Source: an uncultured Bacilli bacterium
GTDB lineage: Bacteria > Bacillota_I > Bacilli_A > RF39 > UBA660
NCBI GenBank assembly: GCA_944359055.1
Contig: CALVSO010000008.1
Location: forward strand, 1 to 59,594
Reading direction: 5' to 3'
DNA length: 59,594 nt
The notes under the pieces are model-generated. The model ran no database searches. It was given only the letters and a program-made list of their open reading frames with translations, and had not been told where the DNA came from. The position numbers and the translations under genes are program-made. Positions 6,409 through 59,451 of this stretch are shown here, in pieces (within the stretch, counting starts at the first letter, position 1; each line of letters starts with the position of its first letter).

Positions 6409-7260
6409 TTGAAAAAAGTTAAAAAAGCTGTCATACCAGTAGCAGGTATGGGAACTAGATTTTTACCAGTTACTAAATCAGTTCCAAAAGAAATGCTACC
6501 AATTATTGATAAACCAACTTTACAATATATTGTAGAAGAATGTGTTGAAAGTGGAATTGAAGAAATATTGTTTATTACAAGTCCATACAAAAGAAATATT
6601 GAAGATCATTTTGATCAAAGTTTTGAATTAGAAACTAGATTAGAAAGAAATAATAAGCTAAAAGAATTAGAAGTAGTTAAAAATATTTCTAAAATGTGTA
6701 AAATTTATTATACTAGACAAGGTGAACCATTAGGTAGTGGTCATGCTATTAAACTAGCAAAATCATTTATTGGTGATGAACCATTTGCTGTTTTATATGG
6801 TGATGATTTAATGAAATCTGAAACACCTGTTTTAAAACAATTAATTGATGTTTACGAAAAATACGATGCTAACGTAATTGGTGTTCAAGAAGTTGATAGA
6901 AATTTAGTATATAAATATGGTATTATTGAATTTGAAACTGAAAACAAAATAAAAAGTATCATTGAAAAACCAAGTATTGAAGAAGCACCAAGTAATTTTG
7001 CAGGTCTTGGAAGATATATTGTCAAACCAGAAATATTTAATGAATTAGACAAATTAGATAGAGGTAAAGGAAACGAATATCAATTCACTGATGCAATGTT
7101 AAACTTAATGAAAAGACAAGATTTTTATGCTTGTAAATTTAAAAGAACATATTATGACATTGGTAATCAATTAGGTTATTTAAAAGCCAATATTGCTTTT
7201 GCCCTAGATAGAGATGATTTAAAAAATGAATTAAACAAGTATTTAAAGGAGATCAAATGA
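6409..7260 (+). CDS. galU: UTP-glucose-1-phosphate uridylyltransferase
   Basis: The enzyme makes UDP-glucose from UTP and glucose-1-phosphate for glycolipid, teichoic acid or exopolysaccharide synthesis. The 283-residue sequence is a full-length GalU/GtaB. It has the nucleotide-binding [42 protein letters not shown], the YGDDL metal-binding motif and NEYQFTDAM. Translation starts with TTG 6409, 8 nt after AAAGGTGA; no better ATG exists nearby. A TATAAT lies at 6382-6387. It converges on thrS, overlapping it by 8 nt. Confidence 0.92.
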
Positions 7261-7271
7261 TCTCCTTTTTA
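7245..7271. terminator. Bidirectional terminator containing both stop codons (galU/thrS)
   Basis: AAAGGAGATCA (7245-7255) pairs with TGATCTCCTTT (7258-7268) around a 2-nt AA gap, and T or A runs flank it on both strands. The TGA of galU (7258-7260) and the TGA of thrS (7253-7255, minus) both fall at the tip of the hairpin. Confidence 0.8.
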
Positions 7272-8998
7272 ATTAAATCAATAAATTCATCAATTGAAAC
7301 TGAAATAGTTTCTTCACTACCATGTTTTCTATAACTAATAATATTATTGTCTACTTCTTTTTGGCCTAAAATTAAAGTATAAGGATATTTTTTAACAACA
7401 CTTTCTCTCATTCTATATCCAACTTTTTCTTCCCTATCATCTAAATTAACCCTAAAATCATTTTCCAATAATAAATTATATATTTTTTTAGAATAATCTA
7501 AATGATATTCATTGTTAACTGGAATTACATTTATCTGAACAGGAGATAACCAAGTAGGAAGACATCCTTTTGTTTCTTCTAAAATAAATGCTGTAAATCT
7601 ATCAAATGTACCAAATATTGCACGATGGATAACAACAGGTACTTGTTTTTCACCCTTATTATCAATGTAAGTTAAATCAAATCTTCTAGGTAATAAAAAG
7701 TCTAATTGGCATGTTGATAAAGTTACTTCTGGACCAACGGCTGGTTTTACTTCAACATCTAATTTAGGACCATAAAAAGCAGCTTCTCCTATCGCTTCAA
7801 AATAAGGTATTTCTAATTCATTTAAAACTTCTCTTAATTTATTTTCAGCATTATTCCACATTTCATCATCATCGAAATATTTTTCTTTATCTTCTGGATC
7901 TCTTAAAGATAATCTAAATTTGTAATCTTTGATACCAAAATCTTTATAAACTTCTAATATTAAATTTACAACTGATTTAAATTCATCTTTAATTTGTTCT
8001 GGTGTTACAAATAAGTGAGCATCATTTTGACACATACATCTTACTCTTTCTAATCCTTTAACAGCGCCTGAAGCTTCATATCTAAAATCTGTTGCGAATT
8101 CTCCTATTCTAATTGGCAAGTCACGATATGAATGTAATTTATTTTTATATACTAACATATGATGCGGACAATTCATTGGTCTTAAAACAAATTCTTCATC
8201 ATCAACTTTCATCATTGGAAACATATTTTCTTTATAATGATCCCAATGCCCACTTGTTTTATATAAATCAACTGTTCCAACACAAGGAGTATATACATGA
8301 TTATATCCTAATTTTCTTTCTTTATTATAGATATAATTTTCCAATTGTTTTCTTACAATAGCTCCATTAGGTAACCACAAAGGCATACCAGCGCCTACTA
8401 AATCATGATTCATAAATATTTCTTGTTCTTTACCAATTTTTCTATGATCTCTTTGTTTTGCTTCTTCAATGTAATTTAAATATTCATTTAAATCTTCTTC
8501 ATTTTCAAAACAAACACCATATATTCTTTGTAACATTTTATTTTTAGAATCACCTTTAAAATAAGCTCCACTTACTTTAAGTAATTTAAAATATTTTAAT
8601 TGTTTAACAGATTCAACGTGTGGTCCACGGCAAAGATCAGTAAAATCTCCTTGTGTGTAACAAGATATAATAGTACTTTCATCCATATTATTAATTAAAT
8701 CTATTTTATATGGATCATTTTTAAATTTTTCTAAAGCTTCTTCTCTGCTTAATTCTTCACGATAAATTCTTTTACCATCTTTAGAAATCTTTTTCATTTC
8801 TTTTTCAATTTTTTCCAAATCTTCAACTTTAATAACTTCATCACCTAAATCGATATCATAATAAAATCCTTCTTCGATTACAGGTCCTACCCAAAACAAA
8901 GCTTTTGGATATAAATGTTTAACTGCTTGCGCTAAAAGATGAGCACAACTATGATTCATTACATTTAATTTTTCATCTTCTTTAATATTTTTTAACAT
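7253..8998 (-). CDS. thrS: Threonyl-tRNA synthetase, lacking the TGS domain
   Basis: This class II synthetase charges tRNA-Thr. The N-terminal editing domain is complete, with H16xxxH20 (HSCAH) and C123xxxH127 (CRGPH). The catalytic domain carries RPMNCPHH (273-280) with a zinc-ligand Cys. The anticodon-binding domain ends the protein (from ~480). At 581 residues it is ~60 shorter than the usual ~640, because it starts directly at the editing domain and has no TGS domain. Reduced bacteria show similar forms. ATG 8998 follows AGGAGGA and overlaps the upstream gene by 17 nt. A Thr T-box upstream controls both. Confidence 0.95.
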
Positions 8999-50751: not shown

Positions 50752-50830
50752 ATACTCACCCATATTTATTATATATGATTTTTTAATAATTATCAATATG
50801 TATATTTATAAAATATAGGTGTTTAATTCA

Positions 50831-50858
50831 CACCCTTTTGTCATTATTGAATATGCTA
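50831..50858 (+). promoter_or_regulatory. Sigma-K-type promoter of the cotY/Z-like gene
   Basis: CAC (50831-50833), 16 nt and AATATGCTA (50850-50858) agree with AC-N16-CATANNNTA except for the first base. A CACCCTTT/AAAGGGTG inverted repeat spans the promoter, but its left arm would not be transcribed. Confidence 0.5.
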
Positions 50859-50884
50859 TATTAGAAAATGAAAGGGTGGATTTT

Positions 50885-51331
50885 ATGTGTAATAATGAAA
50901 ATGAATCTTGCAAATGCATAGCTGAAATATTAACTGTAATATGTATTCTACAACAAAACGTAAATTGTTCTGATTCATGTTTAGATACATGTGATCGTGG
51001 ATTTTTAGGTTGTGGCACTACTACTTATACTTGCAATACAAGACCTATAATGTTATATACATGCTGCGGTAATGGAACACCATGGAGTATGCCAACAACT
51101 AAAGATACAACTGACTGTACTGACACTCCAACACCATCAAATTGTTCAAACGTATTTAGAATTGAAAAAATTGATGGATGTTGTGCAACTTTTAGAGTTC
51201 TAGCACCAAATACTGATCCTCTAACACAAGTAGCTATTCCATATGTATCAACTAATTCTTTCTTTACTATGAATTTAAATTGTGTTTGTAGTTTAAGATG
51301 CTTACAAGATACATACGTTGAATGTTTATAA
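50885..51331 (+). CDS. cotZ: CotY/CotZ-family Cys-rich spore crust protein
   Basis: The 148-residue protein is the length of B. subtilis CotZ and contains 19 Cys. The family pattern is present: an N-terminal Cys/Glu segment, IAEILTVICILQQNVNCSDS then CLDTCDRGFLG, the middle NVFRIEKIDGCCATFRVL and the C-terminal FTMNLNCVCSLRCLQD. CotY and CotZ form disulphide-linked two-dimensional lattices in the outermost spore layer (crust). I use ATG 50885 after AAAGGGTGG; an in-frame ATG upstream would overlap the promoter. CotZ versus CotY cannot be separated without a phylogeny. Confidence 0.85.
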   Translation: MCNNENESCKCIAEILTVICILQQNVNCSDSCLDTCDRGFLGCGTTTYTCNTRPIMLYTCCGNGTPWSMPTTKDTTDCTDTPTPSNCSNVFRIEKIDGCCATFRVLAPNTDPLTQVAIPYVSTNSFFTMNLNCVCSLRCLQDTYVECL

Positions 51332-51715: not shown

Positions 51716-51749
51716 AAAAAAGTCAATTAAAATAAACTTAATTGACTTG
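51716..51749 (-). terminator. Terminator of polC
   Basis: On the minus strand AAGTCAATTAA pairs with TTAATTGACTT around an AT loop, followed by T. The polC stop lies within it. Confidence 0.75.
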
Positions 51750-54700
51750 ATTCATCTAAATTATCTAAAATATGCATGTTACGCATTTTTTCAATTAAAG
51801 TACTAGATACTTTACCACGTTTTTGTAAATCTTCAATACTTAAGAATTCACCTTTATTTCTTTCTTCTACTATTGTTTTAGCAACAGTATCACCTAAGCC
51901 ATCAATACTACTAAAAGGTGGAATTAAATTACCTTCTTCATCTAAACAAAATGTTGTAGCTTGACTTTTATTTAAATCAATATTTTTAAATTTTAGACCA
52001 CGAGCTGTCATTTCTAATGCAAGTTTTAAACATTCTAAAATGCCACTTTCTTTGTTTGAAGCATCAAATCCTTTATTAGAAATTTCAATCATTCTGTTTT
52101 TTATAGCATCATAACCTTTTATCATTGTTTCAATATCAAAATCGGTTGCTTTAGTTGAAAACCATGATGCATAAAAATAACTTGGATAATGAACTTTGTA
52201 ATAAGCTATTCTAAACGCACTAGTAACATAAGCAGTTGCATGAGCTTTTGGAAACATGTATTTTATTTTACGACATGAATTAATATACCAATCTTCAATG
52301 CCTGCTTCTTTCATTTCTTGCTCAAATTCAACCCATTTATCAGGTTCTTTACTAGCTTTACCTTTTCTTACAAATTCCATTATTTTAAATGCTTTAATTG
52401 GTTTCATTCCCTTTTGCATTAAATATACCATTATATCATCACGACAACCAATTACTTCTTTAAATGGTACGATATTATTTTTTATTAATTCTTGAGCATT
52501 ACCTAACCATACATCAGTACCATGAGACAAACCTGATATTTTAATCAATTCTGCAAAAGTTGTTGGTTTGGTTTCAGCTACTAATCCAATTGTAAAAGGT
52601 GTTCCAAATTCTGGTATTCCTAAAGTACCTGTTTCATTTAATATTTGTTCTTTAGTAACGCCTAAAGGTTCTGGTGATAGAAATATTCCCATTGTTTTTT
52701 TATCATCTAAAGGAACTTTTGTTATATCATGACCAGATAAATCTTGAATCATTCTTAATTGTGTTGGGTCTGAATGACCTAAAATATCTAGTTTTAAAAC
52801 ATCTTGATCAATTGCGTGATAATCAAAGTGAGTTGTACGCCAAGCACTATTAGGATCATCAGCAGGATATTGAAAAGGCGTAAAATCAAAAACATCCATA
52901 TATCCAGGTATTACAACTATTCCTCCAGGATGTTGTCCTGTTGTTCTTTTAACGCCTGTACAACCAAGCGCTAATCTTTCAATTTCAGCTGATTTTTTAG
53001 TTATTCCTTTATCTTCACAATAGCCTTTAACAAAACCATAAGCAGTTTTATCGGCTACGGTACCAATTGTTCCAGCACGATATACATTATCTTCACCAAA
53101 TAATACTTTAGTATATTCATGAGCAGCGGCTTGATTTAAATCAGAAAAGTTTAAATCAATATCAGGAACTTTATCCGCATTAAAACCTAAGAATGTTGCG
53201 AAAGGCATATCATTACCATCTTTTAACATTTTAGTGTGACATTTAGGACATTCTAAATCAGGTAAATCAAAACCAGATGAATATGTATTTGCTAAAGGTA
53301 CACTATCTATTTCAAATATGCTATGTTTACAATTAGGGCAACGATAATGTGCCGGTAATGGATTTACTTCTGTTATTCCCATCATAGTAGCAACAAACGA
53401 TGATCCAACAGATCCACGTGAACCTACTAAAAATCCATCATCGTTAGATTTTTTAACTAATTTTTGAGCAATTAAATAAATAACGTCAAATCCTCCACCG
53501 ATAATACCACCTAATGTTTTAGTTAATTTCTTTTCAACATCTTCATCATTTAAATCTGGTTCAGTTATTTTAATTTCATTTCTAATTTTATCTTTAACGG
53601 CATCAAATCCTTGTAATATTGTCTCATGCAATATTTTAAATCCTTCTTCTAAAATATTTTCTACATTATTTCTTTTTAATTCTTCTTTGATACTATTAAA
53701 TATACCATCACCATATAATTCTTTGGCAATTCTCTCTTCAATATTATAAGGTAATGGATCTCCATACCAATCTTTTGCTTTAGTATAAACTAAATCAGTA
53801 ACAGTTTCTACTGATTTATCAATTTTAGGTGAAAAAGGAACTCCTCCTGTTTCAATAATAACTTCAATAATATCAACCATATCAGCTATTTTATTAGGAT
53901 TAGTAATAACAATTTCTTTTCTTGTTTCTTCATCTAAAAAATCAAAATTTTCTAACATTTCATCAGTTGTTCTAAAATGTTGACTAGGTATTTCTGTTAT
54001 ACTATTTTTAGCTAAAGGATGTCTTCCTCCACCTGGTACTTTTTGATTAACAATAATTTCCCTGTAAATTTTATCTTCTTTAAATAAATGATGAACATCA
54101 CCTGTTGCTACTATTATTTTACCCGAATCTTTAGTTACTCTAATAATTTTTCTAATGTGTTCCATTAGTTCGATACTAGAACCAAAATCATTAGTTTGTA
54201 ACAAATGATTATAAACATCTAATGGTTGAACTTCAACATAGTCATAAAAATTAATTATGTTGGTTAATTCTTCATCAGATTTACTTTTAGCTTCAATAAA
54301 TACTTCACTTTCATAACAACCACTACCAATTAATAAACCTTCTCTTAATTCATTTAAAACACTTCTTAATATTCTAGGTGTTTTATATAAATAAACTGTG
54401 TTGGCTAAAGAAATAATTTTGAATAAATTTTTTAATCCTTTTTTATTCTTAACTAAAATATTGACATGATAACTTCGTCCATATTTATGAATTTCACTTT
54501 TATCAATCATTTTATTTAATTGAGAAACTTTTTCAATATTTTGACTTGACAGTTTTTGAAGCATTTTATGTAAAACTAAAGCAGTACCTTGTGCATCATA
54601 ATCAGCTCTATGGTGAGCATCTTCATCCCAAGGAACATCATAACGTTTAACTAAAGCGGTTAAATTATGTCTTGCGTAATTGCTATCTAATATTCTTGAT

Positions 54701-56244
54701 AGTTCTAATGTATCAATAACAGTGTTTTTATACTCACCTAAATTATATTTTTTATAACACATTTCCAAGAAAGATGTATCAAATTTAGCATTGTGAGCAA
54801 CCATTGGTAAATCACCATACCACTCAATAAATCTTTTAATGGCATTTTCCTCATTATCCTTACCTTCTAACATTTCATCAGTTATATTAGTAACTTCAGT
54901 TATTTTAGGAGGTAATTTTCTACCTGGATTAATTAATTCATCATATCTATCAATTATCTCTCCATTATGAATTTTAACTGCACCTATTTCAATAATTGTG
55001 TCTCCACCAGCAGCATTAAAACCGGTTGTTTCAAAGTCAAATACGACATAAGTATTATCTAATAAAACAGAATCATTTTCTCTTACTACAATATTAACAC
55101 TATCATCAATTAAAGTTAATTCTGTTCCATAAATAGCTTTAAATTTATCTTTATCTTCTTTACCTTTATTTAAATCACATACCAAATGATATACATCTGG
55201 ATAAGCTTGAGCTCCATTATGATCAGTAATAGCAATAGCTTTATGTCCCCATTTATAAGCTTGTTTAACTAATGTTTTAGCGTCTACTACACCATCCATT
55301 TGACTCATCATTGTATGAGCATGTAATTCAACTCTTTTTTCTTTAGCATCATCACTAGGTGTAGTTATCACTTTATCGCTTTTATTAACATCTCTTAAAT
55401 TTAAAACGATTTCATTAGAATATTTATCGAATTTAGTATAACCTCTAAATTTATACCAAGTATTATTTTTAATATTTTTCTTATAAAAATCAAAATCACT
55501 TTGTTCTTTTACAAATAATTTAGCATACATACTATCATTAAAATCAGTTATTTTTAAAGTAAATATTTTAAAATTAGATTTACTTGATTCAAATAAATCA
55601 ATACCAAAAACATAGGCTTCTATACTTACATTATCTTCTTCAGCGAATATACCACTTATTTCATGCGTAATTTTAGGTATAAAACTACCCATTATTTCAA
55701 TTATTTCTTTTTTTTCAGTTGGTACTTCTACTACTTTAGCTTCTTCAATTTCTTTTCTTATTTCTTTACTTTTTTCTTCATCGATAGTTATACTTAAATT
55801 AATTTCATCAAATCCTACACTATTTAACAAATCAATTAATTTAACTTCTATTGATTTAAACTTCATTTCTTCTGCTTTATTAGCTACTTTAATATTAATT
55901 GTATTATCAACAATGTCTAAATTATCAGTTATAAAAGTTTCTAATAAGGGAAATTCTTTTAAATTTTGTTTTAGTAAATAATTATAGTAATCATTTATAT
56001 ATTCATTTTTTTTATTCTCAACTTTAAATGAAACACCAACTTTATAATCTTTAAAATTATTTTTCAAACAATCTAAAAATTTAATATAAACTTCAAGCGG
56101 TAATGTGTTTTTTAAAGCAATAAAAAAGTGATAACATGTTTTATCCTTATTACCTACTATTTTATCTAGCTTACCTTCTTTAAAATAATTTAATAAGCTA
56201 TTATCTATTTTGATTTGATTTAATAGTAGAATAAGTTTTTCCAT
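51727..56244 (-). CDS. polC: DNA polymerase III PolC (Gram-positive replicase)
   Basis: PolC is the main replicative DNA polymerase of low-GC Gram-positives. The 1505-residue protein carries an N-terminal region and OB fold (~215-310), and a PHP domain (ELHAHTMMSQMDGV at ~320) split by the DEDDh 3'-5' exonuclease (VFDFETTGF, ..VAHNAKFDTSF, ..HHRADYDA). The C-family palm follows (~800-1200; VGSRGSVGSSFVA, zinc finger CPNC..CPKC, PDIDLNFS with catalytic Asp residues). The finger and C-terminal regions complete it. ATG 56244 follows GGGTGGT. Its length is normal for the family. Confidence 0.97.
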   Translation of the reverse strand: MEKLILLLNQIKIDNSLLNYFKEGKLDKIVGNKDKTCYHFFIALKNTLPLEVYIKFLDCLKNNFKDYKVGVSFKVENKKNEYINDYYNYLLKQNLKEFPLLETFITDNLDIVDNTINIKVANKAEEMKFKSIEVKLIDLLNSVGFDEINLSITIDEEKSKEIRKEIEEAKVVEVPTEKKEIIEIMGSFIPKITHEISGIFAEEDNVSIEAYVFGIDLFESSKSNFKIFTLKITDFNDSMYAKLFVKEQSDFDFYKKNIKNNTWYKFRGYTKFDKYSNEIVLNLRDVNKSDKVITTPSDDAKEKRVELHAHTMMSQMDGVVDAKTLVKQAYKWGHKAIAITDHNGAQAYPDVYHLVCDLNKGKEDKDKFKAIYGTELTLIDDSVNIVVRENDSVLLDNTYVVFDFETTGFNAAGGDTIIEIGAVKIHNGEIIDRYDELINPGRKLPPKITEVTNITDEMLEGKDNEENAIKRFIEWYGDLPMVAHNAKFDTSFLEMCYKKYNLGEYKNTVIDTLELSRILDSNYARHNLTALVKRYDVPWDEDAHHRADYDAQGTALVLHKMLQKLSSQNIEKVSQLNKMIDKSEIHKYGRSYHVNILVKNKKGLKNLFKIISLANTVYLYKTPRILRSVLNELREGLLIGSGCYESEVFIEAKSKSDEELTNIINFYDYVEVQPLDVYNHLLQTNDFGSSIELMEHIRKIIRVTKDSGKIIVATGDVHHLFKEDKIYREIIVNQKVPGGGRHPLAKNSITEIPSQHFRTTDEMLENFDFLDEETRKEIVITNPNKIADMVDIIEVIIETGGVPFSPKIDKSVETVTDLVYTKAKDWYGDPLPYNIEERIAKELYGDGIFNSIKEELKRNNVENILEEGFKILHETILQGFDAVKDKIRNEIKITEPDLNDEDVEKKLTKTLGGIIGGGFDVIYLIAQKLVKKSNDDGFLVGSRGSVGSSFVATMMGITEVNPLPAHYRCPNCKHSIFEIDSVPLANTYSSGFDLPDLECPKCHTKMLKDGNDMPFATFLGFNADKVPDIDLNFSDLNQAAAHEYTKVLFGEDNVYRAGTIGTVADKTAYGFVKGYCEDKGITKKSAEIERLALGCTGVKRTTGQHPGGIVVIPGYMDVFDFTPFQYPADDPNSAWRTTHFDYHAIDQDVLKLDILGHSDPTQLRMIQDLSGHDITKVPLDDKKTMGIFLSPEPLGVTKEQILNETGTLGIPEFGTPFTIGLVAETKPTTFAELIKISGLSHGTDVWLGNAQELIKNNIVPFKEVIGCRDDIMVYLMQKGMKPIKAFKIMEFVRKGKASKEPDKWVEFEQEMKEAGIEDWYINSCRKIKYMFPKAHATAYVTSAFRIAYYKVHYPSYFYASWFSTKATDFDIETMIKGYDAIKNRMIEISNKGFDASNKESGILECLKLALEMTARGLKFKNIDLNKSQATTFCLDEEGNLIPPFSSIDGLGDTVAKTIVEERNKGEFLSIEDLQKRGKVSSTLIEKMRNMHILDNLDESSQLSLF

Positions 56245-56282: not shown

Positions 56283-57167
56283 TTAACAACCGAAATTAGA
56301 TAATTTATTTATTTTTATTGCTCTAGTTAATTCTGCATAAACTTCATCATTTTTTCCATTTTTAGAATCATAAAAATTTGTTCCTATTCTAATTAATTCA
56401 TCTAATTGATCATCACTTTTAGATACATATTCATTAATTCTTCTTCCTATTGTTTTAATGAAGGTTGATGTTTTTTTAGGAAAAGTTAAGTTTACTTTCA
56501 CTTCACCAAATATTTTTTTTCTATTTACAAAATTAACAATTTCATAGCATTTTGGCATATTTCTATCTGCCTTAACAAAGTCATAATCAAGATCTAATCC
56601 AAATCCTTTTAAAATAATAATCATCATTTGCATTTTAATTAAAGTTTTAGGATCAAACAAATCTGGCGCTTCATTATAAAATAACAAATAAATACCACAT
56701 AATATATTATTGCTAGAATTTAATTTTAATTGTGATATGTTTTTTAATGTTCTTAATTGTTCAATTTTTTTAGAAACAATACTTAAAACATCAATTTCTC
56801 CTTCATTTAAATTTTTGTTAAATTGTAATTCTTTAGAATCAGTATACTTAAATACTTTTTCACCATCTTTCTCCTCTTCATATGATTGTAATTTATTATC
56901 AACATAAACTACATTTTTTTTCATATCAGTTTTAGATAATTTTATTTCAAGATATTTTTCATCAAAATCTCTAAAAATTGTTCTAATCCAACTTATAATA
57001 GTCTCAAAATCTTCCTTATAATTAAAATTTAAAAAACATTTATCTAACGTTTCTTCGATTTTTTCTTTATTAATACTATTATTTTTTTCATTGCCACAAA
57101 AAACAATTTTTATCATTTTATTATTTTTCATGTATGTTCTTTCACAACGATAATTATATTTTTCCAT
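56283..57167 (-). CDS. Unknown protein, paralogue B of a tandem pair
   Basis: The 294-residue soluble protein shares clear stretches with the adjacent upstream gene: IVFCGNEKNN, ISWIRTIFRDFDEKYLEIKL, LFYNEAPDLFDP, KMQMMIIILKGFGLDLDYDF and EIVNFVNRKKIFGEV. A conserved '.FxGNEK' start and 'IRTIFxDFDExYLE' core define the family. I do not recognise it. The predicted fold is mixed alpha/beta with no membrane segment. ATG 57167 follows GAGAGGG. An extended -10 (TGATATAAT) and a 5' UTR hairpin (AGTGCT/AGCAC) lie upstream. The gene ends 38 nt before the polC start. Confidence 0.7.
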   Translation of the reverse strand: MEKYNYRCERTYMKNNKMIKIVFCGNEKNNSINKEKIEETLDKCFLNFNYKEDFETIISWIRTIFRDFDEKYLEIKLSKTDMKKNVVYVDNKLQSYEEEKDGEKVFKYTDSKELQFNKNLNEGEIDVLSIVSKKIEQLRTLKNISQLKLNSSNNILCGIYLLFYNEAPDLFDPKTLIKMQMMIIILKGFGLDLDYDFVKADRNMPKCYEIVNFVNRKKIFGEVKVNLTFPKKTSTFIKTIGRRINEYVSKSDDQLDELIRIGTNFYDSKNGKNDEVYAELTRAIKINKLSNFGC

Positions 57168-57273
57168 ATTAAAACCCTCTCTTTTTTTATTTAATGTGCT
57201 ATAAAAGCACTTATGGATATACATTATATCACATTTTATTTAAAATATTAATAAATTTAAAATTATTAACATA

Positions 57274-58170
57274 TTATTTTCTTCTTATCTTATCTCTTAT
57301 TAAATTAATTCTTTTTATATATTCTGATTCTTCTAATAAGTTTTCTTTATACGTACAATTTCTTTTAATATATAAAAAGGTACCTAATTTTATTAAAGTT
57401 TCCAACGAATTTTCTTGATCATTTATAAATTCATTTATATTCTTACCTACTATTTGAACAATATTTTTGTTTTCTTGACTCAAAATATCTTTTTCTTCTA
57501 TATCACCAAATAATTTCATTTTGTTTACAAATTCAGTAACTTCGAATGACACAGGATAATTTTTTTTATTTTTATAAAAATCATAATTAAAAGAAATTCC
57601 AAATTCTTCTAATATTAATAACATCATTTGAAATTTTATATTGATAGAAGGAATCTTAAAATCAGGAACTTCTCCATAAAAAAGTTTATATACTTGATAT
57701 AATATTTTATCATGACATGTAATTTTTAAACCATCAATTGATTCAAGTTGTTTTAAATATTTAATTTTATTTAATGAAGAATCTATTATTCCATGATTAA
57801 ATTGTTCAATACCATTATCATAATAATCAATTTTTCTACCTATCATATATCTTATATTAGCACCTTTTTTATTACTTTCTTCATATTTAAATAATAGTTT
57901 GTCAATATATAAAATACTTATTTCCTTTTCTTCTTCAGATAGACTTACTTCCAAGTAAGATTCATCAAAATCCTTAAAAATTGTTCTAATACAAGAAATA
58001 ATTCTTATAGTATCATCATAGTAATTTAAATTTTCAAAATATTGTTCTATTATTTGATTTAACTTTTCATAATCAATATTCTCTCTTTTTTCATTTCCAA
58101 AAAAAACAAAACAAATTTTTTTGTCATCTCTAACAAAAGTTTTTGTAATTTTTACTTCATTTTTCAACAT
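57274..58170 (-). CDS. Unknown protein, paralogue A of a tandem pair
   Basis: The 298-residue soluble protein is homologous along its length to the next gene: CFVFFGNEKREN, ISCIRTIFKDFDESYLEVSL, LFYGEVPDFKIP, KFQMMLLILEEFGISFNYDF and EVTEFVNKMKLFGDI. The C-terminal 60 residues are more variable. I do not recognise the family. ATG 58170 lies 7 nt after GGAGG; ATG 58173 is the other choice. A TATAAT occurs just upstream and a long terminator separates it from the 129-residue gene. The duplication with divergence suggests a family that expands in this lineage. Confidence 0.7.
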   Translation of the reverse strand: MLKNEVKITKTFVRDDKKICFVFFGNEKRENIDYEKLNQIIEQYFENLNYYDDTIRIISCIRTIFKDFDESYLEVSLSEEEKEISILYIDKLLFKYEESNKKGANIRYMIGRKIDYYDNGIEQFNHGIIDSSLNKIKYLKQLESIDGLKITCHDKILYQVYKLFYGEVPDFKIPSINIKFQMMLLILEEFGISFNYDFYKNKKNYPVSFEVTEFVNKMKLFGDIEEKDILSQENKNIVQIVGKNINEFINDQENSLETLIKLGTFLYIKRNCTYKENLLEESEYIKRINLIRDKIRRK

Positions 58171-58202
58171 CATACTTCCTCCAAAAATAATTATAACACA
58201 AT

Positions 58203-58253
58203 TAAAAAAAATTGCCGCTAAATTATTATAGTAATTTAATATTAGTAGCAATT
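58203..58253 (-). terminator. Long-stem terminator of the 129-residue gene
   Basis: On the minus strand ATTGCTACTAA pairs with TTAGCGGCAAT (two mismatched or G-T positions) around an AT-rich loop, followed by eight T. It overlaps the end of the gene. Confidence 0.7.
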
Positions 58254-58615
58254 TCTATAGTTATTGAGTCTATTTCTTTAGATTCAACATAAAAATTTAA
58301 TTGAAAATCTTTTTCACTCGTTTTGATCATATTACAATCATATTTACCTATTACAATTGAAGACCATCCTTTTTCATCTTCATATGTTATATCACTTATG
58401 TAATGATTTAAATCTATTACTTTATTTAATTCAAAGTTTATAAACATATCTTTAGAAAATACAAATTCTAGTCCAATAAATATATTATTATCAATATTAA
58501 ATTTAACAAAAGGTGCTTCTCCTTTAACTTTTTCACCACAAACTTTAGCTTCAAAATTTCCCCAATGTACTTTTATATCATAATTTTTATATTCTTTATC
58601 ATTAATTTTTATCAT
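58226..58615 (-). CDS. Unknown 129-residue beta-rich protein
   Basis: The small soluble protein (MIKINDKEYKNYDIKVHWGN) alternates short strands throughout (KFNIDNNIFIGLEFVF, SDITYEDEKGWSSIVIG, FQLNFYVESKEIDSITIEI), suggesting a single beta-sandwich. No family is recognised. It is the first gene before the two paralogues but has its own sigma-A promoter and terminator. AGGAGGAA precedes ATG 58615. Confidence 0.6.
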   Translation of the reverse strand: MIKINDKEYKNYDIKVHWGNFEAKVCGEKVKGEAPFVKFNIDNNIFIGLEFVFSKDMFINFELNKVIDLNHYISDITYEDEKGWSSIVIGKYDCNMIKTSEKDFQLNFYVESKEIDSITIEIATNIKLL

Positions 58616-58631
58616 ATAAATTCCTCCTAAT

Positions 58632-58660
58632 AAAATAGAACCCTGTTAAATAATGTTCAA
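58632..58660 (-). promoter_or_regulatory. Sigma-A promoter of the 129-residue gene
   Basis: On the minus strand TTGAAC (58655-58660), 17 nt, TATTTT (58632-58637). The rest of the gap up to 58749 shows no further feature. Confidence 0.55.
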
Positions 58661-58749
58661 TATAAATTGCATTAATTAAAATATTGTAACTAAAAAGCTA
58701 AACTAACAATCAAATTAATATAACACATTACTATGATTTAAAATTATTT

Positions 58750-59451
58750 TTATAATGTTTTTTTTAAAACTTTTTCTTTTGAACTAATTTTTATAGCTGC
58801 TAAATAAGTATCATCTAATGTTTCCGAATGGAAATCAACATCTCTATAACTTATATTAGATAATTGATGATATAAATTTAATAGTCTATGTAAATTTTCA
58901 TAGCGATCTTTATCAGTTAAAGATCCATATGTTCCAATAAATAAAGTTTTATTAGAATTAGTCAAACGTAAGAATGGCAATAACTCTTCATTTGAATATG
59001 GGGCTTGTGTCATAAATGTACCAATATCATCATTAAACTTTGGATGACAATTTGGATTTATAGAATAATCATCTTTTGAAGGATATTTAACTATAACATT
59101 ACCATCGTTTAATAATGCTAATTTCCCATTAAAAGCTTCAATTTCACTATGTCTTTTTAAAGTTTGTGCATATGGAGAAATTACAATCGGTTGATGATTA
59201 GTATGGGTTGCCATTTCAATAGCAATTGTATCAAATAATCCTTTGCCAAATTCTGCCATAATTTCAGTTTCAATTTCTTCATAATCTTTCATATAATCAA
59301 ATAATTGAACATATTTTCTAGCATTTTCTTTTTTTAAAATTACCCATTCCACAAATAATTCTTTATATTTGTTAAAATTATCGAACGAATTATTTATTCC
59401 ATATGCTTTTTTAAATTCTTCAAACATCTTATTTAAATATTCACTTTTCAC
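58750..59451 (-). CDS. Unknown 233-residue protein at the right edge
   Basis: The soluble protein has a helical N-terminal third (NKMFEEFKKAYGINNSFDNF, ELFVEWVILKKENARKYVQLF). The middle is rich in possible ligand-binding residues (FDTIAIEMATHTNHQPIVIS, YSINPNCHPKFNDDIGTF). Two or more His residues cluster, but no known motif emerges. The start is GTG 59451 with GAGGAAA 7 nt before it. It has a clear sigma-A promoter upstream. Confidence 0.65.
   Translation of the reverse strand: MKSEYLNKMFEEFKKAYGINNSFDNFNKYKELFVEWVILKKENARKYVQLFDYMKDYEEIETEIMAEFGKGLFDTIAIEMATHTNHQPIVISPYAQTLKRHSEIEAFNGKLALLNDGNVIVKYPSKDDYSINPNCHPKFNDDIGTFMTQAPYSNEELLPFLRLTNSNKTLFIGTYGSLTDKDRYENLHRLLNLYHQLSNISYRDVDFHSETLDDTYLAAIKISSKEKVLKKTL

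Follow-up and report, generated by a model that had tools for sequence, protein, structure and literature searches.

We analysed the right end of a 59,594-nucleotide stretch of DNA, hereafter the window, which makes up the whole of contig C8 (CALVSO010000008.1) in the assembly of an uncultured Bacilli bacterium (GCA_944359055.1, here genome G000; 1.34 Mb in 48 contigs, 92% complete). The contig ends at 59594, and there is no sequence for the region beyond. Four open reading frames (ORFs), all on the minus strand, lie at this end upstream of a gene that we take to be polC, encoding a PolC-type DNA polymerase III (51727..56244, minus strand, start picked by eye). Two of them encode the paralogous proteins P0001 (299 amino acids (aa); 57274..58173) and P0002 (294 aa; 56283..57167), each starting at an ATG downstream of a good ribosome-binding site. 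The other two encode a 129-aa protein (58226..58615) and a 233-aa protein (58750..59451). A preliminary description of the window had named four genes here, and all four ORFs are present; the two smaller ones are real genes, since relatives of them occur in 13 and 15, respectively, of the 193 genomes of the same GTDB-type family. P0001 comprises an N-terminal alpha/beta domain (residues ~1–125) and a helical C-terminal domain (residues ~146–299; 57274..57738) that resembles the C-terminal domain of the antitoxin DarG. P0002 has the same two-domain layout, and its C-terminal domain maps through the alignment columns to 56283..56738.

The two paralogues are 35% identical (103 of 292 positions; BLASTP E 7e-56), and the four shared motifs previously quoted for them all occur in both. 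In a maximum-likelihood tree of 42 rows, from which members shorter than 280 aa were left out, they are sisters with a support of 100/99, on long branches of 0.75 (P0001) and 1.6 (P0002) changes per column. The genus-mate G705 also carries a tandem pair beside polC. The sister position in the tree and the presence of the same tandem pair in G705 together confirm the duplication with divergence that had been proposed. The G705 copies share 65% (P0001) and 44% (P0002) identity with those of the window, against 96% for PolC, and the ratio of nonsynonymous to synonymous changes (dN/dS, Nei-Gojobori method) relative to the G705 orthologues is 0.49 for P0001 and 0.83 for P0002. Their retention in G705, together with a low identity and a high dN/dS next to a nearly unchanged PolC, indicates that the paralogue genes are kept but change fast. 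The further suggestion that the family is expanding is weak: two copies are found here and in one genus-mate, but elsewhere a single copy is the rule.

A count of family members, one of the checks suggested at the outset, returned exactly two copies in the organism's own genome (P0001 and P0002) and, with P0001 as the query, patchily distributed relatives in 16 of the 193 genomes of the family. A profile search matched 32 of the 288 genomes of the order, 4 of the 395 of the class and, within the genus, 3 of 18; every match, among the matches listed, lies inside one GTDB-type family. For polC, all 18 genus genomes gave a match (E ≤ 0.001), some via fragments or distant hits alone. The named relatives (34 loci) are metagenome-assembled genomes of uncultured Bacilli/Tenericutes, including Candidatus Onthousia and Scybalousia. 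A typical positive genome holds a single full copy of ~320–330 aa; several loci (L031, L032, L093, L097 and L115) hold the conserved C-terminal part alone (~175–190 aa), and the copies in G216 and G323 are interrupted by stops. Two loci, L130 with a broken gene and L036 with no gene called as homologue, were excluded from the alignments and neighbour tables. No relative of the family was found in viral contigs, none of P0001 in 50,697 phage records, and none of L101, the family query used there, in plasmids; an origin from phages or plasmids was rejected on these grounds. The paralogue family is lineage-restricted, two-domain and patchy, and its patchy presence, together with the variable junction in which the pair lies, agrees with its earlier labelling as accessory.

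In library searches, P0001 and P0002 had no Pfam or NCBIfam match that passed the cut-off and no convincing one among the PHROGs; PADLOC left both, as well as the 129-aa and 233-aa proteins, without a match at E ≤ 0.1. Weak matches to PF09597, DUF5356, DUF7148, Csx1, Clp_like_SDH, folB and phrog_7938 were taken as chance, and sequence searches against solved structures returned nothing convincing. The pair had been called an unrecognised family, which holds for Pfam, NCBIfam, PHROGs and PADLOC, but the C-terminal half does resemble a known domain. The AlphaFold2 model of P0001 (35 rows; mean predicted local distance difference test (pLDDT) score 86.7) shows an N-terminal alpha/beta part and a helical C-terminal part; taken whole, it has no Foldseek match at E ≤ 0.001 in the PDB or among viral models. 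We also predicted the C-terminal domain of a canonical member alone (173 aa, pLDDT 87.6, predicted template modelling score 0.86). On re-alignment, this domain superposes on 7yk3_D with Z 11.7 and a root-mean-square deviation of 3.0 over 144 of its 173 residues, whereas the next-best chain reaches Z 6.0 and covers 47 residues. A sequence search identified chain B of 7yk3 (two chains, 189 residues) as the DNA ADP-ribosyl glycohydrolase DarG in the Mycobacterium tuberculosis DarTG complex, and from the chain count and length we infer that 7yk3_D is the second DarG copy. The DarG of locus L223 matches chain B through its residues 200–236, outside the macrodomain and in the C-terminal half.

The N-terminal part follows the order strand-strand-helix-helix-strand-strand, which is that of the T-fold. 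T-fold proteins (FolB, QueF, PTPS, GTP cyclohydrolase I and uricase), with a similar order of elements, fill much of its match list, at Z 4.5–6.3 (best 6.2–6.3), a range in which (Z < 8), by the tool's note, a match may mean just a common arrangement; the likeness may be due to chance. No residue of this domain is invariant; the best kept, R63, T64, E71 and Y89, are conserved in 0.89–0.91 of the 44 rows of a conservation count that left out members shorter than 240 aa. No toxin fold was found among the fold matches.

We compared profiles of the family with those of DarG using hhalign. The DarG set held 19 proteins, from 17 loci among 40 listed plasmid matches plus L223 and L224, both called DarG by PADLOC. 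Fifty family C-terminal domains against the 19 DarG C-terminal domains gave a score of 31.9, with a probability of 39% and E 3.2e-4 for one comparison. No shuffle came as high, in 200 full-column (maximum 17.4) or 200 within-10-column permutations (maximum 23.3), and the other controls against the DarG profile scored 10.9 (reversed alignment) and 8.8 and 13.4 (the two unrelated families of the window). The N-terminal domain scored 13.1 against full DarG. With the 14 most divergent members, which include P0001 and P0002, the C-terminal score rose to 39.0 (probability 76%, E 2.3e-5, 117 columns), again above all of 200 shuffles (maximum 21.5). The alignment places the family helix IKxQxMMxIL over the DarG helix LExQKLxYFL, and the family motif MPxS over the DarG motif GPYS. 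The profile searches and structure prediction that the preliminary description had recommended yield no known family in the libraries and, by fold as well as by profile, indicate a resemblance to the DarG C-terminal domain.

The same DarG profile also reaches the antitoxin domain Panacea. Two Panacea groups from the same bacterial family scored 35.8 and 34.5 against it, and when ORFs from the fetched loci (including L159–L183) were ranked with a hidden Markov model (HMM) of the DarG C-terminal domain, Panacea proteins came directly after the DarGs, which suggests that these two antitoxin domains are related. Judged by their profiles, the DarG C-terminal domain, Panacea and the paralogue family look like one superfamily. 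Membership of the paralogues in Panacea itself, our first guess from the spacing of the Q and P motifs, was dropped, since the direct profile comparison was negative; the link to DarG then arose from the fold search. The organism does encode a true Panacea protein elsewhere (G000:C2:33750-34025, L177), and PF13274 (Panacea) occurs in 48 of the 193 family genomes.

Both known domains are tight protein binders. The DarG C-terminal domain is reported to physically occlude the toxin DarT by mimicking single-stranded DNA, and AdfB, a phage anti-DarT factor predicted to resemble the DarG C-terminus, is reported to counter DarT, likely by direct contact (PMC11481870, accessible part). Panacea domains are antitoxins to many unrelated toxins; one Panacea protein, SocA, acts as a ClpXP adaptor that delivers SocB (PMC8832971, accessible part). 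Given these roles, together with the patchy presence, the fast change and the lack of a fixed toxin gene, we infer for the paralogues a role as protein binders in conflict. The reading that we prefer, and hold about evenly between acceptance and doubt, is that they form a lineage-specific, fast-evolving family of antitoxins or guards in which a C-terminal domain of the DarG superfamily is joined to a new N-terminal domain. The C-terminal domain would be a diverged member of the DarG C-terminal-domain superfamily and, through it, kin to Panacea/SocA. It would bind and silence a toxic or foreign protein partner, as an antitoxin, an orphan antitoxin or a guard directed at a toxin or phage factor that enters the cell; this partner may be encoded elsewhere or arrive from outside, and the N-terminal domain could provide a second contact or act as a sensor. 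Traits typical of conflict genes are present, namely patchiness, differing neighbours, a variable junction, elevated dN/dS and, in four loci, an Abi_2 gene downstream.

The likeness to DarG consists in the fold of the C-terminal domain and in a central helix with a conserved Q followed by a proline motif. The family differs from DarG in having another N-terminal domain in place of the macrodomain or NADAR domain (no Pfam match), for which reason we do not file it as DarG, and it has neither an adjacent darT gene nor a PADLOC DarG match. With Panacea/SocA it shares a match of similar score to the DarG C-terminal profile, but not the GPV motif or a constant toxin gene in the same operon, and the direct profile comparison gave no support. 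AdfB, like the family, is predicted to resemble the DarG C-terminus, according to its published description; it is, however, a phage protein, whereas no viral relative of the family was found. The mimicry of single-stranded DNA is not implied for the pair, since their C-terminal domains are not clearly acidic: the isoelectric point is 6.8 for P0001 and 9.05 for P0002, with a mildly acidic median of 5.3 in the family and 6.4 for DarG's. In the open-access literature we found no statement linking the DarG C-terminal domain with Panacea or with the paralogue family. The accessible part of PMC8832971 names DarG a single time, to illustrate what a dual antitoxin is, and in that of PMC12487901 the DarG matches cover the macrodomain only.

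Several results weigh against the antitoxin or guard reading and the kinship on which it is built. The hhalign result varies with the rows chosen: the 36 core members alone scored 19.5 (1.4%), below the best full-set shuffle (23.3), an alternatively trimmed alignment scored 26.9 (12.7%), and full length against full length gave 24.2 (1.7%). When ranked as a single sequence with the DarG C-terminal HMM, P0001 fell among unrelated ORFs (E 0.39). Foldseek's own E-values for the match to 7yk3_D are not significant, and Z 11.7 can, according to the tool's note, be reached by mostly helical models without known kinship. Directly compared with the two Panacea groups, the family scored 17.2 and 16.7, with no similarity detected; none of 32 members had PF13274 (E ≤ 1) within the best 25 of 35 families, and in place of the Panacea motif GPV the family has MPxS, whose P207 is kept by 0.93 of the 44 rows and whose S209 by 0.91. 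No constant neighbour able to be a toxin was seen across the family loci. DarT (PF14487) is missing from G000 and exceeds the cut-off in only 2 of the 193 family genomes, neither of which has the paralogue family; on this distribution DarT was rejected as the partner in this lineage. The DarT-like matches L216 and L217 have no classical macrodomain DarG alongside, as read from their ORFs.

These weaknesses bear on an explanation that we find doubtful but take seriously, that of an ordinary lineage-specific housekeeping or regulatory gene whose helical domain came to resemble that of DarG by convergence. The weak Foldseek scores fit it, as do the confinement of the listed matches to one GTDB-type family and a frequent position between housekeeping genes; patchiness down to genus level (3 of 18) and fast evolution do not, and the fold and the profile point to the same domain. 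A more specific alternative comes from the surroundings of the family genes, where neighbours are common almost solely to close relatives (15 unnamed and 34 named loci). In one lineage, an Abi_2 (AbiD-type) gene lies 112–118 bases downstream of the family gene (L112, L113, L114 and L125); at the same position, L116, L117, L119, L120 and L128 have a short ORF. In two genera, the family gene adjoins a ClpX-like AAA+ ATPase (AAA_2 plus ClpB_D2-small): in L108 the ATPase gene (7038-8396) lies 45 bases downstream on the same strand, and in L204 (2164-3540) it lies 34 bases off in divergent orientation, next to the tandem pair that the window also has. The ATPases share 55% identity with each other, have a different N-terminal part and, as their closest solved relatives, ClpX. 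The paralogues might accordingly be dedicated adaptors that hand a target to such an unfoldase, as SocA delivers SocB to ClpXP (PMC8832971, accessible part). The recurrence in two separate genera, with no further copy of the ATPase in 241 loci (1.47 Mb), speaks for this, but the case comprises just two loci, found post hoc and with differing orientations, and no such gene is seen in the window, whose contig ends. The IGF-type loop of such unfoldases binds ClpP. Neither ATPase has this loop at its usual place, by eye or by pattern search, so that no ClpP partner is implied, and overall we regard the adaptor role as unlikely.

Slightly less credible still is a one-gene defence protein or fused toxin–antitoxin, in which the N-terminal domain would be an effector held in check by the DarG-like C-terminal domain until a phage or other trigger appears. 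A two-domain, patchy and fast-evolving protein at a variable junction with no fixed partner gene would suit such an arrangement, and so would the C-terminal domain standing alone in five loci. The N-terminal domain, however, has no invariant residue and no recognised toxin fold, and R63, T64, E71 and Y89 form no recognisable active site. The most far-reaching version of the conflict idea joins several of these elements: a conflict module made up of a single gene in uncultured gut Bacilli, combining a DarG/Panacea-type antitoxin domain with a new T-fold-like effector or sensor, sometimes accompanied by its own ClpX-like unfoldase and entering polC-prmC and other variable junctions by itself; the DarG C-terminal domain and Panacea would then form one antitoxin superfamily. 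We consider this improbable as a whole. If the reading that we prefer is right, the toxin-binding half of DarG would not be specific to DarTG and would belong to a wider, very fast-evolving superfamily of protein binders that includes Panacea and the paralogue family. Fold and motif register would then offer a handle for antitoxins, guards and anti-defence proteins that profile libraries leave unnamed, and the partner of the paralogues would become a concrete search target.

The site itself was compared across the genus, where the region upstream of polC (L201–L214) could be followed in 13 genomes plus the window, 14 in all; the contigs of G694 and G706 are cut short. The gene names used here (prmC, prfA, kinase, synthase and recombinase) are our assumptions from the sequences. 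prmC lies directly next to polC in G704, G707, G699 and G046, and one diacylglycerol-kinase-like gene separates the two in G695, G698, G180 and G696. The junction holds an asparagine-synthase-like gene in G697, three serine-recombinase-like genes in G693 and a gene of the 129-aa family in G703 (L208:261-758), while the paralogue family occupies it with one copy in G700 and two each in G705 and the window. Among close relatives, the space between polC and prmC varies and is filled by separate accessory genes. In the genome studied here, contig C13 carries prmC and prfA, and a second copy of the 129-aa gene (64% identical) stands there beside prmC (L132:7058-7477).

The four genes had been put forward as the best candidate for an undescribed system in the window, a claim that does not survive for the four together. 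The three families occur in different sets of genomes, and where the paralogue and 129-aa families co-occur (G002, G004, G126 and G163) they are on different contigs. In the fetched loci, profiles of the 129-aa and 233-aa families matched no paralogue-family locus other than those of the window (list checked by eye). We rejected a four-gene system on these grounds and regard the genes as separate accessory families sharing a variable site. The 129-aa protein has no relative in viral contigs. The 233-aa family, with the conserved motifs E.GKG..DS, NPY and G.YG...DKD, has no library match and varied neighbours (L142–L155), and no linkage to the paralogues was seen elsewhere.

A separate sigma-A promoter had been assigned to each gene, which stands in part. 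There are sites matching 10 of 12 positions immediately upstream of the 233-aa gene (59506-59478) and upstream of P0002 (57251-57223), but the best site for P0001, whose gene starts 52 bases past the 129-aa gene, matches 9 of 12, and the promoter scan of the region found no good site close upstream of the 129-aa gene. Across the region, promoter-like sites are little above chance (44, against 35.8 ± 5.9 in shuffles), and a terminator scan of the region found none. On the far side of polC, a plus-strand gene at 50819-51331 encodes a cysteine-rich protein that we take to be of the CotZ/CotY spore coat type, and the organism may accordingly sporulate.

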